Assembly (NCBI RefSeq): GCF_021209385.1
Contig: NZ_JAJOIL010000035.1
Coordinates: forward strand, 62,001-126,000
Direction of reading: 5' to 3'
Source: Seleniivibrio sp.
Lineage (GTDB): Bacteria; Chrysiogenota; Deferribacteres; Deferribacterales; Geovibrionaceae
Length of the DNA stretch: 64,000 nt
Shown: piece after piece, positions 41,803 to 46,351 of the stretch
Numbering within the stretch: the first letter of the stretch is position 1
Layout of the letters: every line of letters begins with the position of its first letter
Position numbers and translations under genes: made by a program
The notes under the pieces: model-generated
What the model was told of the DNA's origin: nothing
The model's input: the letters and a program-made list of their open reading frames with translations, nothing else
Databases searched by the model: none

Positions 41803-42627
41803 TTATTCAACAGGAATCCAATATTCATAATAAATTCTTCCAGCGTTAATATTTGAATGAAGTTGTCTCTCTTTATCAATGAACAATTGGCAACCAAACA
41901 TATCACCATTAACAGTATAATTGTTTTCTTTAATATATTTATTTATCAATCTGACAGATTCCAATCTGCTTTCTTGAGTGGAACCATGCGACTGGACAGT
42001 ATACAGGCATTTTCGGGCTTCCAAACGTTTCGTCAGTCCGCGTTGTTCAAAATCGCTTTGATCAATAAACTTAGAGTCAATTGAATAACCATGATAGCTT
42101 TTCCATACACAATCTTTAAGTAATTCATCCTGTTTAACCAACATAAAGAAATGAACAAGAGGCAGATAATGCAGCCATTTGGCAATAAGTTGTACTAATT
42201 CAGAGTTGCATACTATTTTTCTGTCATATGAATTGATAAGATAAGATATTTCAGGGCTTTCGCAAATTGAAAATGTACCAAGTTTCTTGGGAATATTAGT
42301 AATTTTTGATCTATAATCTGTAAGAACTCTGCTAACCTCAAGTAACCTTTTAGATTCTCTTTGAAGTTCTTCCTCTTTCATTTTCAGTTTATCTTCAATA
42401 TCGAGGATAGTTCCGTTTTTCATAATATCTATAGTTTCTTTCACAGAAAATCCGCAAGACCTGAAAAAAGCACACTTGACAAGCTGTTTAAGATGCTGAG
42501 CTTCGTAATACCTGTAGCTGTTTCTGTAATCCCGTTCAGGTATGACTACTTTTTCATTTTCATAAAACCGTAGTGCTTCTGTGGTGCAATTGAACATCTT
42601 TGCAACTTCAGCAATTTTCAAACTCAT
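41803..42627 (-). CDS. MerR-family transcriptional regulator with GyrI-like effector domain
   Basis: The product is 274 residues. The N-terminal MerR HTH (MSLKIAEVAKMFNCTTEALRFYENE in two blocks, with the RFYE signature) leads to a dimerising coiled coil (about 75-115). The C-terminal domain of about 155 residues ends RIYYEYWIPVE, the BmrR/GyrI-type small-molecule-binding fold. Such regulators untwist promoters with long spacers when a ligand binds. The divergent cytochrome gene has exactly such a promoter. GGAG lies seven bases before the ATG at 42627; a TTG four codons earlier is less likely. The gene is noticeably AT-rich compared with the flanking housekeeping genes. Confidence 0.88.
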   Translation of the reverse strand: MSLKIAEVAKMFNCTTEALRFYENEKVVIPERDYRNSYRYYEAQHLKQLVKCAFFRSCGFSVKETIDIMKNGTILDIEDKLKMKEEELQRESKRLLEVSRVLTDYRSKITNIPKKLGTFSICESPEISYLINSYDRKIVCNSELVQLIAKWLHYLPLVHFFMLVKQDELLKDCVWKSYHGYSIDSKFIDQSDFEQRGLTKRLEARKCLYTVQSHGSTQESRLESVRLINKYIKENNYTVNGDMFGCQLFIDKERQLHSNINAGRIYYEYWIPVE

Positions 42628-42679
42628 CCCCGTCTCCAAACGACTAAGTATTCTTAATGAAGTTTTTTCAAAATGAGCA

Positions 42680-42710
42680 TTGACCTTAAAGCTTCTTTAT
42701 ACCTTATAGT
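42680..42710 (+). promoter_or_regulatory. MerR-type promoter with 19-bp spacer and central dyad
   Basis: TTGACC (42680-42685), a 19-bp spacer and TATAGT (42705-42710). The spacer contains an imperfect dyad TTAAAG-CTT-CTTTAT. Overlong 19-bp spacers holding a dyad are the hallmark of promoters activated by MerR proteins. It points into the cytochrome/flavoprotein operon, and the MerR gene is divergent. Confidence 0.82.
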
Positions 42711-42798
42711 CCGATTAATAGCTAGCTAATTTACATGAACCGACGGGTTTAAAGGAGATTCTAATGGGTTAACTATTTGTAGCAAAGACAAGTAAAAA

Positions 42799-42823
42799 AA
42801 CCGGGAATTTTCTGTTTCCGGTT
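42799..42823 (-). terminator. Minus-strand terminator or leader hairpin upstream of the cytochrome gene
   Basis: AACCGGGAA / TTTCCGGTT, a 9-bp stem (one G-T pair) with a 7-base loop. On the minus strand it is followed by seven Ts, so it should stop antisense transcripts heading toward merR. On the plus strand it sits in the leader without a T-run. Confidence 0.6.
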
Positions 42824-42873
42824 GCTATTTAAGGTTTTGAACAGTTTTAAATTAGTTAAAAGAGGAAATAAAT

Positions 42874-43374
42874 ATGATGATATTTACAAAGTATCTGACA
42901 GCCATTTTATCAACGTTTTTGGTCATATTCTCATTGAGCGGACACGTTGACGCAGGTGAAAAAGACAACAGTTCTCAAACTGTTAAACATTATTACGACT
43001 CCATAAAATCAGAGAATAATCTTGCAAAAGTACACGGTGATGCCGGGCTCAGCTGCATCGACTGCCACAGTGACTATACTGCAAAAGGAAACAGCAAAAG
43101 CGATACCTCTGTTTTAAAACTCAAAAGTTCAGGCGATGAATTATGTCTAAAATGTCACGATCTTAAAGAGGTTGACAATAAAGTTGTTTATAAAGGTCAG
43201 GGACCATCAGGTGCTGATGTCCGCCCGCACTCACAACACGTTGCCGACATCCATTGCGCAACCTGCCACAGCATGCACAGAAAATCCAATCTGATGTGTG
43301 CAAAATGCCATGTCCAAAAATGGATGAAAACTCTTCCCAAACGTTGGAATACACCGCTCAAAACTGAAAATTAA
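42874..43374 (+). CDS. Periplasmic tetrahaem cytochrome c
   Basis: The product is 166 residues with a signal peptide (cleavage likely after GHVDA) and four CXXCH haem sites at residues 61, 91, 128 and 142, plus extra histidines for axial ligation. The layout resembles the cytochrome c3-like tetrahaem domain of Shewanella flavocytochrome c fumarate reductase and the small cytochrome of methacrylate reductase systems. It probably carries electrons from a membrane quinol dehydrogenase to the flavoprotein encoded 20 bp downstream. No membrane quinol oxidase (CymA/NrfH type) is in the window. Ribosome site AGAGGAAA. Confidence 0.9.
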   Translation: MMIFTKYLTAILSTFLVIFSLSGHVDAGEKDNSSQTVKHYYDSIKSENNLAKVHGDAGLSCIDCHSDYTAKGNSKSDTSVLKLKSSGDELCLKCHDLKEVDNKVVYKGQGPSGADVRPHSQHVADIHCATCHSMHRKSNLMCAKCHVQKWMKTLPKRWNTPLKTEN

Positions 43375-43394
43375 TTGTAACAAAGAGGGAAATG

Positions 43395-45032
43395 ATGAAT
43401 TCAAAAAATAAAAAAACAACGGATATGTCACGAAGAAGCTTCATGAAAACAAGTGCTATGTCAGCACTGGGAGTTGCATCTGCAAGTCTGATATCAGGTG
43501 TTGCTCCGGAAGTTGAGGCAAAAACAGCACTAGTACAAAGTAACGGTAAATATGGCTTTGAAACTCCTCCAAGCCCGATTCCATCACGTATGATCAGGGA
43601 ATTCGCAACTGCTGACGTTATCGTCGTCGGCGGAGGAATCTCAGGCGTTATGGCTGCAAAATCAGCACAGGAAAATGGAGCAAAAGTTATAGTGCTTCAG
43701 AAAGGACCTGTCGTAATGTGCCACGGTTTTTCTATGGGCTGCATAGATTCAAAAATCCAGATTGAGAAAAACATAAGAATCAACAAAATGAATGCAATTA
43801 CAGAATTGAACTATCAGAGCCTGAACAAACCGAAATTTGAACTGTTGAAACTCTGGGCAGAACACAGTGGGGAAACTTTCAATTGGATTGATGATATGAC
43901 CACCAAACACGGAGTCAAAGGTATTTTCATTCCTAATGCAGGGACAGAATCCGGAGAAAGTGGAGGAAAATACTGGTTCAATTCTTACTGTACAGGGCAC
44001 AAATGGAAAGGCGGGATGATCGTAGCAATAAATCTCGTTGCTAAAGAAGCTGTCAAAGCGGGTGTTGAATTCCGCTTCAACACTCCGGGCAAACAACTAG
44101 TGCAGGACAAAAGCGGCAGAATTACCGGAGTAATAGCTAAACACGAAATAACAGGAGACTACATACAATTCAATGCAAAAAAAGGTGTGATCCTGTGTAC
44201 TGGTGATTACGGCAACAATCCAGACATGCTACAAAAATATTGCCCTGCTGCTGTTGGTCTCAAAAGTTATTATACACCACGCCACAATACAGGCGATGGG
44301 CATTTAATGGGTATCTGGGTTGGAGCCGAAATGGAAAACGGCATCCATACTAAAATGGCACATGTCCACTCCACGCCTGACTTTGCAGACAGTGACGCAC
44401 CCGGACGCGGAATGCCGTGGCTTGCTGTCCAAAAAGAGGGAAAACGCTTATGTAACGAAGACATTCCTTTTTATTTGATGGCAAATCAGACTCTGAATGC
44501 AACAAACCCTGACGGTCTTTATTACAACATTCTCGACTCTGACTGGGAGGAAAACCTTAAACAATTTCCTCCGCGCGTTGCCGGTGCAATAGACCGTCAA
44601 TCTTTTGACGAAGCTCTTAGCAGAGGGTTAATTATTAAAGCGGATAAAATAGAAGAACTGGCAAACAAGCTGAATCTGCCGGCAGAAACATTTTCAAAAA
44701 CTGTTGCAAGATACAATGAACTTGTCGAAAAAGGTGTTGATGAAGATTTCGGAAAAATAGCAGTTGACCTTTCATTTATCAAAAAAGCCCCGTTCTACGG
44801 AATACCGAGATTATGTTGCATATCTGCTATCCTTGGCGGGATCAATATCAATACAAAAATGCAAGTTCTCGATAAAGAACAACACATTATACATGGGTTG
44901 TATGCTGCCGGTAATGTGTCAGGAGGATTTTTCGGAGGAGCAAATGATTACCCTTTCCCAATTATAGGCTTAAGCGTCGGAAGAGCCACTACTTTTGGTC
45001 GACTTGCTGGCAGGTATGCCGCAAAAGGCTGA
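43395..45032 (+). CDS. Tat-exported FAD-dependent reductase of the fumarate-reductase flavoprotein superfamily, substrate unknown
   Basis: The product is about 545 residues (the adjacent ATG at 43392 is also possible; GAGGGAA precedes both). The twin-arginine signal MSRRSFMKTS is followed by the FAD dinucleotide motif DVIVVGGGISGVMAA (about 74-88) and a C-terminal FAD segment (GLYAAGNVSGG...GRATTFGRLAG). Key substrate residues of flavocytochrome c fumarate reductase are not conserved: the proton-donor TTRD region reads EDIPF, the VHHT region reads RLCCIS, and the GANRLGG region reads GANDYPFP. It is therefore probably not a fumarate, urocanate or methacrylate reductase. It is paired with the tetrahaem cytochrome and followed by a terminator. 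Confidence 0.85.
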   Translation: MNSKNKKTTDMSRRSFMKTSAMSALGVASASLISGVAPEVEAKTALVQSNGKYGFETPPSPIPSRMIREFATADVIVVGGGISGVMAAKSAQENGAKVIVLQKGPVVMCHGFSMGCIDSKIQIEKNIRINKMNAITELNYQSLNKPKFELLKLWAEHSGETFNWIDDMTTKHGVKGIFIPNAGTESGESGGKYWFNSYCTGHKWKGGMIVAINLVAKEAVKAGVEFRFNTPGKQLVQDKSGRITGVIAKHEITGDYIQFNAKKGVILCTGDYGNNPDMLQKYCPAAVGLKSYYTPRHNTGDGHLMGIWVGAEMENGIHTKMAHVHSTPDFADSDAPGRGMPWLAVQKEGKRLCNEDIPFYLMANQTLNATNPDGLYYNILDSDWEENLKQFPPRVAGAIDRQSFDEALSRGLIIKADKIEELANKLNLPAETFSKTVARYNELVEKGVDEDFGKIAVDLSFIKKAPFYGIPRLCCISAILGGININTKMQVLDKEQHIIHGLYAAGNVSGGFFGGANDYPFPIIGLSVGRATTFGRLAGRYAAKG

Positions 45033-45085: not shown

Positions 45086-45106
45086 AATCTTAACGGGAGA
45101 AATGTG

Positions 45107-46351
45107 ATGCAAAAATTCATAACATTAAAACTTTTTTTATGTCTGGTATTTTTAACCTATTATTCAGACGCAAATGCCGCAACTACGCTTCAGGAAGCAT
45201 TTTCACAAGGAACTATCAGAGGAGAATTAAGAGCGAACTTCTTCAGCAGAGATTTTGAAGATAGTAACAAAAAGGATCGAGAAGATTTTGCAGCAGGTAC
45301 ATCTTTGTATTATCACACTGCACCGATGTATGGACTCAGTGCAGGAGCGGCATTTGCTTCAGCCAATGATATTGACAGCGACAGAGATAAAGCAACATAT
45401 GGAATGCTTGCCGCAGATCATGAAAATGTTGCCAGACTGCAGGAGTTCTATATTCAGGGAGACTGGTTTAAAACAACTTTGAAGTATGGCGCTCAGGAAT
45501 TGGAAACACCGTTCATGAATACTCACGATATACGTCTTTTACCAAGAACCTATAAAGGGTTATCCATCAAAAACAATAGTATTGATAACATGAAACTTTC
45601 CGCTTATTACATAACGGAGTCCGCAGGCTGGACAGATGATGATTTTGTTACTCTGTCGCAAGCTGTGGCTGCAGAATCAGGCGGTGCATCATCAATACCG
45701 GATGAAAAAGCAATGGTAATTCTAGGTGCCGAATACAATATTCCCACTGATATTGTTAAATCGAATGTTCAGGGTTGGTATTACACTATGACAGACGTGT
45801 TTAATCAAACCTATCTTAAAACTTCAGTATCTAAAAATCTCAACAACGTTACAATCTATACAACCCCTTCTGTTTTATGGCAAAAATCTCAGGGTGATGA
45901 ACTGAACGGTAATCTCAGTACATATCAATACGGGCTTAATGCAGGAGTAAAAGCTTTAGGATTTAACCTGACGGGTTATTATGCAAAGACAGGAGATGAT
46001 GCCATTCTTGCTCCTTGGGGAGATGAAAAAATTGTTATCCTGCAGCTTTATCACTCTGAAAGAGCAGAGGAAGACACATACGCCTTAAAGCTTAACTATG
46101 ATTTTAGTAAAATCGGAATAAAAGGACTCAGTTCATACATTTTTTATGCTAATTTTGACACTCCTGATTCCGGTGCAAACGCCTCGTCTGATGCCTCTGA
46201 AACAGATTTAAGCGCGACATATTCTTTTCATGGTGCTCTTGAAGGTGTCAGCATTAGAGCAAGATATGCAATGGTCAACATTAAAGACGGCAAAGATATT
46301 AATGATTTAAGGTTTTACGTTAGCTTTAAATTCGGGTCGAAATCAAAATAA
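45107..46351 (+). CDS. Outer-membrane porin-like protein (OprD/Campylobacterota-type)
   Basis: The product is 414 residues. The signal peptide ends near DANAA; then come TLQEAFSQGTIRGELRANFFSRDF and GLSAGAAFASANDI, typical of the OprD-like 'Opr' porins of epsilonproteobacteria and relatives. The C-terminal strand is NDLRFYVSFKFGSKSK; four extra residues follow the aromatic strand. It probably admits the substrate, or releases the product, of the neighbouring reductase. This is an inference from position. ATG at 45107 is chosen over the adjacent GTG because GGGAG is seven bases upstream. Confidence 0.8.
   Translation: MQKFITLKLFLCLVFLTYYSDANAATTLQEAFSQGTIRGELRANFFSRDFEDSNKKDREDFAAGTSLYYHTAPMYGLSAGAAFASANDIDSDRDKATYGMLAADHENVARLQEFYIQGDWFKTTLKYGAQELETPFMNTHDIRLLPRTYKGLSIKNNSIDNMKLSAYYITESAGWTDDDFVTLSQAVAAESGGASSIPDEKAMVILGAEYNIPTDIVKSNVQGWYYTMTDVFNQTYLKTSVSKNLNNVTIYTTPSVLWQKSQGDELNGNLSTYQYGLNAGVKALGFNLTGYYAKTGDDAILAPWGDEKIVILQLYHSERAEEDTYALKLNYDFSKIGIKGLSSYIFYANFDTPDSGANASSDASETDLSATYSFHGALEGVSIRARYAMVNIKDGKDINDLRFYVSFKFGSKSK

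Follow-up and report, generated by a model that had tools for sequence, protein, structure and literature searches.

The locus studied here raises the question of how a multihaem cytochrome operon is switched on, and whether the regulator gene that diverges from it plays a part in this. In the window, that is, the entire 64-kb stretch of DNA that was analysed, a merR-type gene encoding a protein of 274 aa (41803..42627, minus strand; ATG at 42627, with an alternative TTG at 42639 in the open reading frame listing) lies back to back with the cytochrome gene, whose ATG is at 42874. The first-pass annotation had proposed that a classic MerR-activated promoter, consisting of TTGACC, a 19-bp spacer carrying a dyad, and TATAGT, is located between these genes at 42680-42710. 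On re-reading of the sequence, the coordinates proved exact and the position between the two genes was confirmed. We consider it very probable that this sequence element is a MerR-family repressor/activator promoter of the cytochrome/flavoprotein/porin operon, a reading that is supported by the spacer length, the dyad at -24, the conservation of the element beside homologous merR genes, and the BmrR-like predicted structure of the regulator.

Anatomy of the element and the chance of its occurrence

The -35 hexamer TTGACC (42680..42685), the spacer TTAAAGCTTCTTTATACCT (42686..42704) and the -10 hexamer TATAGT (42705..42710) are all read on the plus strand, and the two hexamers, which are sigma-70-like, together match the consensus at 10 of 12 positions. 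The dyad was found within the spacer as TAAAG-CTT-CTTTA (42687-42699, without strand), a predicted MerR operator with short arms (5 bp) that form five perfect pairs around a 3-nt centre. This centre falls on spacer base 8, which is -24 when the -10 hexamer is set as -12 to -7. The position of the -10 hexamer predicts a transcription start (+1) at 42717 on the plus strand. MerR promoters are characterized by a -35/-10 separation of 19-20 bp and by a palindromic operator within the spacer that is centred near -24, and both features are present here; in all respects testable by sequence, the anatomy of this putative promoter agrees with the known MerR mechanism. Binding, activation and the start site are predicted by analogy with this mechanism. 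A MerR dimer on the dyad would hold the promoter off until a ligand in the C-terminal domain makes the dimer kink and untwist the 19-bp spacer; the distorted spacer would then align the -35 and -10 hexamers as if they were 17 bp apart, enabling RNA polymerase to start near 42717 and to transcribe the genes for cytochrome c, flavoprotein and porin. The switch itself is an ordinary, well-known mechanism, and what is added here is the recurrent pairing of regulator and reductase across phyla, together with a hint at the signal.

A promoter-like string with a 19-bp spacer and a short dyad might also arise by chance in an AT-rich intergenic region. The GC content of the merR-cytochrome intergenic region is 31%, and the two strands of the 64-kb window contain 87 promoter-like sites that have a 19-bp spacer and match the consensus at 9 or more of 12 positions. 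The spacer length to which the first-pass annotation had appealed is therefore no evidence when taken alone. It does count in combination with the dyad, because 42680-42710 is the only one of these 87 sites that has a dyad (5/6 pairs) at -24, and such a site occurred in only about 0.5% of dinucleotide shuffles of the intergenic region (P ~0.005). The element is missed by a generic promoter scan because the scan covers spacers of 16-18 bp, which excludes 19 bp. The operator string TTGANNNTAAAGNNNCTTTA has a single exact match in the 2.9-Mb genome, which is the window site. We rejected the operator string alone as evidence, since an exact match to the operator pattern is present in 12 of the 46 genomes of the order, which is little above the outcome for a reversed-pattern control. 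Among ten operator matches that were fetched, a -10 hexamer (at least 4/6) at the 19-bp distance is present in only two, namely those beside this MerR in genomes G000 and G007.

Conservation beside homologous merR genes

A close homologue of this MerR was found in only one other genome, G007, among 46 of the order. This genome belongs to a different genus of the same family, and its MerR protein is 54% identical over the full length. As in the window, its merR gene diverges from matching cytochrome, flavoprotein (73% identical) and porin genes, whose order is unchanged. The 31-bp element of this locus (L003), TTGACT-ATAAAGCCACTTTATACCT-TAGATT, is identical to that of the window at 25 of 31 positions, with TTGAC of the -35 hexamer and the spacer length preserved, whereas its flanks are near background identity and the intergenic region has otherwise diverged. 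The G007 footprint reads TTGACTATAAAGCCACTTTATACCTTAGATT, and the L003 dyad, TATAAAG-CCA-CTTTATA, is better than that of the window. This already contradicts a chance origin, which we regard as extremely improbable. The regulatory link to the cytochrome operon, which the first-pass annotation took to be directly readable, stands by position and by conservation, and reaches as far as these two carry it. In the 16-kb stretch around the G007 homologue there is only one other site of this kind, TTGACT-CTATAGTTACTATAGGTTC-TATGTT (L005 1914-1944), located between the gene of a 152-aa metal-type MerR and that of a P-type ATPase; it is a textbook MerR arrangement and serves as a positive control.

A scan of genome contigs for close relatives with the single MerR protein gave no match, and a query made from the alignment of the two sequences led to loci in Clostridia. 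The distant homologues share 19-28% identity overall and are mostly from Clostridia; the first Clostridia set (23-26%) lies directly upstream of FMN_bind/FAD_binding_2 reductase genes. No further close members came up among 26 genomes of the genus to which one of these Clostridia belongs, nor among 295 of its order. The promoters of L006, L007 and L008, each located between merR and the reductase gene, are TTGAAT-CTAAAGTCGCTTAAATTTA-TATAAT, TTGAAT-CCAAAGCAGCTTTACCTCT-TATAAT and TTGAAT-CTAAAGCTGCTTTACATGC-TATACT, and their operators nearly equal the window operator, the dyads of L006 and L007 reaching 4/6. Two other loci with FAD_binding_2 neighbours, L070 and L088, have dyads of the TTGGTG-CTG-CACCAA and TTGGTA-TTAAC-TACCAA type. 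A TAAAG-N3-CTTTA dyad is present at L074 and L075, where the next gene encodes an old-yellow-enzyme-type oxidoreductase (Pfam Oxidored_FMN for L074), and other dyads are found at L072 (old-yellow-enzyme-type), L073 (sigma factor) and L076 (transporter permease). The spacer is 19 bp, the same as in the window, at L070, L088 and L072-L076. At L068 and L069 the 19-bp promoter lacks a clear dyad; for the latter locus, the site chosen by the script differs from that chosen by eye. In numbers that are indicative, as the 14 loci were partly picked after inspection and include all flavoprotein-linked loci found, the 19-bp site is the best or tied-best promoter in all 14 (4.4 expected), and 10 of them have a site that combines a match of 9/12 or better with a dyad at -24 of 5/6 or better (0.03 expected from shuffles). 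Such a site is also present in seven of the 11 remaining homologues (L077-L087), and in six of these it diverges from merR; the divergent promoters, which belong to a related MerR group (L079, L080, L083, L084, L086 and L087), have other dyads, for example TTGACA-TTGACATAATGTCAAGGCT-TAAAAT. In L074, L075 and L007, the operator recurs (CCTAAAGYNGCTTTAGG or CTAAAGTAGCTTTAAC) immediately before the merR start, an arrangement that suggests autoregulation.

These data also bear on whether the MerR protein might only repress at the dyad, or control only its own gene, while the operon is driven by another promoter down a leader of ~160 nt. MerR-type proteins that only repress do exist, CvkR being a MerR-type repressor (PMC9938897), and a second dyad directly before merR is seen in several homologues (L074, L075). 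However, when the plus strand of the intergenic region is read with any other spacer length between 15 and 22 bp, the best site scores 8 and none attains 9/12, and the -35 hexamer, the spacer length and the -10 hexamer are conserved along with the dyad, even at loci where merR and the target gene are co-directional. We consider this explanation very unlikely, and retain that of a promoter activated by the MerR protein. As to a promoter for merR itself, the minus strand of the intergenic region contains only weak, unconserved candidates.

The type of regulator

The N-terminal part of the regulator is a winged-helix MerR DNA-binding domain (Pfam MerR_1, PF13411, 9.8e-12, above the cut-off), and no Pfam match was found for its C-terminal part. 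An AF2 model based on five sequences had a pLDDT of 58; when repeated with 25 homologues, the pLDDT was 90.6. The putative long dimerisation helix is a single helix (74-115) in this monomer model. Over its full length, the model is best matched by structures of BmrR (Foldseek E 2e-12; VIA-align Z 15 with an rmsd of 4.2 over 261 residues), and its C-domain (residues 115-274) matches both GyrI of E. coli (1jyh, Z 10.7) and the drug-binding C-domain of BmrR (1bow, Z 10.5). This predicted fold places the regulator with the small-molecule (BmrR/EcmrR) type and not with the metal type, which the label "classic MerR" of the first-pass annotation suggests.

Distortion of the spacer DNA is the means by which both BmrR and EcmrR activate promoters of 19-bp spacing (PMC7722741, PMC8113463). 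The bmr promoter of Bacillus subtilis resembles that of the window in its 19-bp spacer and in its operator centre at -24 (PMC7722741), a likeness between the two operators that is one of centre position, not of alignment. BmrR also shares the predicted full-length fold (Z 15) and the GyrI-like ligand domain with the window regulator; sequence identity, on the other hand, is 14-18%, and the target of BmrR is a drug pump, not a reductase operon. Similarly, EcmrR of Escherichia coli combines a MerR DNA-binding domain with a GyrI-like C-domain and activates a promoter with a 19-bp spacer (PMC8113463), but it is 16% identical to the window regulator and has other ligands and another target. The metal regulators MerR, CueR and CadR likewise have promoters whose spacer, 19 or 20 bp long, contains a palindrome (PMC1526738), and they are often divergent from the genes that they regulate. 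They are short, however, and lack a large C-terminal domain, whereas the window MerR has a full predicted ligand C-domain and no efflux genes beside it.

It might be argued that the promoter is MerR-controlled but responds to a metal or redox signal, as in the case of MerR, CueR and SoxR, and not to an organic substrate. In a sequence profile search, the DNA-binding domains of CueR, MtaN and TipA were indeed closest to the regulator. Its scores, however, stay below the NCBIfam cut-offs for the metal sensors CueR (35.9 bits vs 147.4) and MerR (28 vs 150.85), the 274-aa protein has a predicted GyrI-like C-domain as do BmrR and EcmrR, and the neighbouring genes encode reductases, not metal efflux. 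Furthermore, the metal-type MerR of G007 is a separate protein with a dyad different from the window operator. We therefore regard a metal or redox signal as unlikely, and favour an organic one.

The target operon and a candidate inducer

The predicted operon, read on the plus strand, starts with an untranslated leader (42711..42873; about 157 nt when counted from the predicted start), followed by the gene of a 166-aa multihaem cytochrome c (42874..43374; domain match to Cytochrom_c3_2) and that of a 546-aa Tat-type FAD_binding_2 flavoprotein, which is flavocytochrome c/fumarate-reductase-like (43392..45032). An OprD-family outer-membrane porin gene (45104..46351; domain match) is probably the third gene of the operon, the gene order being equal in G007. 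The flavoprotein is related to the flavocytochrome c fumarate reductases of Shewanella and to urocanate reductase, a relationship at the level of the fold family only, as its score for the flavocytochrome c subfamily TIGR01813 is below the cut-off (190.5 bits vs 285.45). Alignment with 1D4D shows that the Arg of the RG motif, which we take to be the catalytic proton donor in flavocytochrome c fumarate reductase, is kept in the window flavoprotein (...DAPGRGMPW...). In place of the HHTMGG and GANRLGG segments of 1D4D, which presumably bind fumarate at its second carboxylate, the window flavoprotein has CISAILGG and GANDYPFP. The retention of this Arg, together with the changed carboxylate-binding segments, suggests that the flavoprotein is a C=C reductase whose substrate is other than a dicarboxylate.

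Among the 14 promoters, the gene driven encodes an FAD_binding_2 reductase in nine cases and an old-yellow-enzyme-type oxidoreductase in three, and the flavin-dependent enzymes behind these 12 promoters are probably C=C-reducing. The inducer would, on this basis, probably be an α,β-unsaturated substrate, and the nine and three reductase pairings are most simply explained by a ligand class common to them all, that of unsaturated organic compounds. That the ligand of the window regulator is the α,β-unsaturated substrate of its own flavoprotein is quite possible, if not quite probable. We also put forward, tentatively, that this BmrR-like MerR subfamily may be, across phyla, a dedicated sensor of α,β-unsaturated organic acids that activates flavin C=C reductases, whether extracytoplasmic or cytoplasmic, via an operator at -24 that reads TAAAG-N3-CTTTA or is related to it. 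If this is true, operator and regulator predict respiratory reductases that are induced by their substrate. The substrate of such flavin reductases can rarely be told by sequence alone, and for annotation the module of regulator, promoter and reductase offers a cheap handle on the substrates of flavin reductases of anaerobic respiration, as the pairing opens the inducer, and by way of the inducer the enzyme substrate, to testing.

The literature, in a search of incomplete coverage, yielded nothing that ties MerR to fumarate-, urocanate- or enoate-type reductases. A system of comparable make-up is the methacrylate redox system mrd-mcc of Geobacter sulfurreducens AM-1, for which homologues in Deferribacteres are described in the sections covered of its account (PMC4427408). 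According to these sections, the genes for a Tat-exported FAD flavoprotein and for a multihaem cytochrome c form one operon in that system, a likeness to the window that lies in operon make-up and not in an alignment with Mrd, while the gene order and the cytochrome differ. No MerR is named in the same sections (PMC4427408), whereas the window operon has a divergent merR.

The leader itself has several further features. Both genomes have a palindrome, AGCTAGCT, that spans +4 to +11 relative to the predicted start (42720-42727 in the window and 2412-2419 in L003); it is kept though the adjoining leader is not conserved, and might serve as a second operator or as a signal transcribed early. At 42751-42772, a strong RBS-like AAAGGAG precedes a two-codon frame, ATG-GGT-TAA, which is not conserved in L003. 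Finally, the leader contains an inverted repeat, AACCGGGAA/TTTCCGGTT, at 42799-42823, which is followed on the minus strand by a run of T and would form a terminator for transcription that runs from the cytochrome side toward merR.
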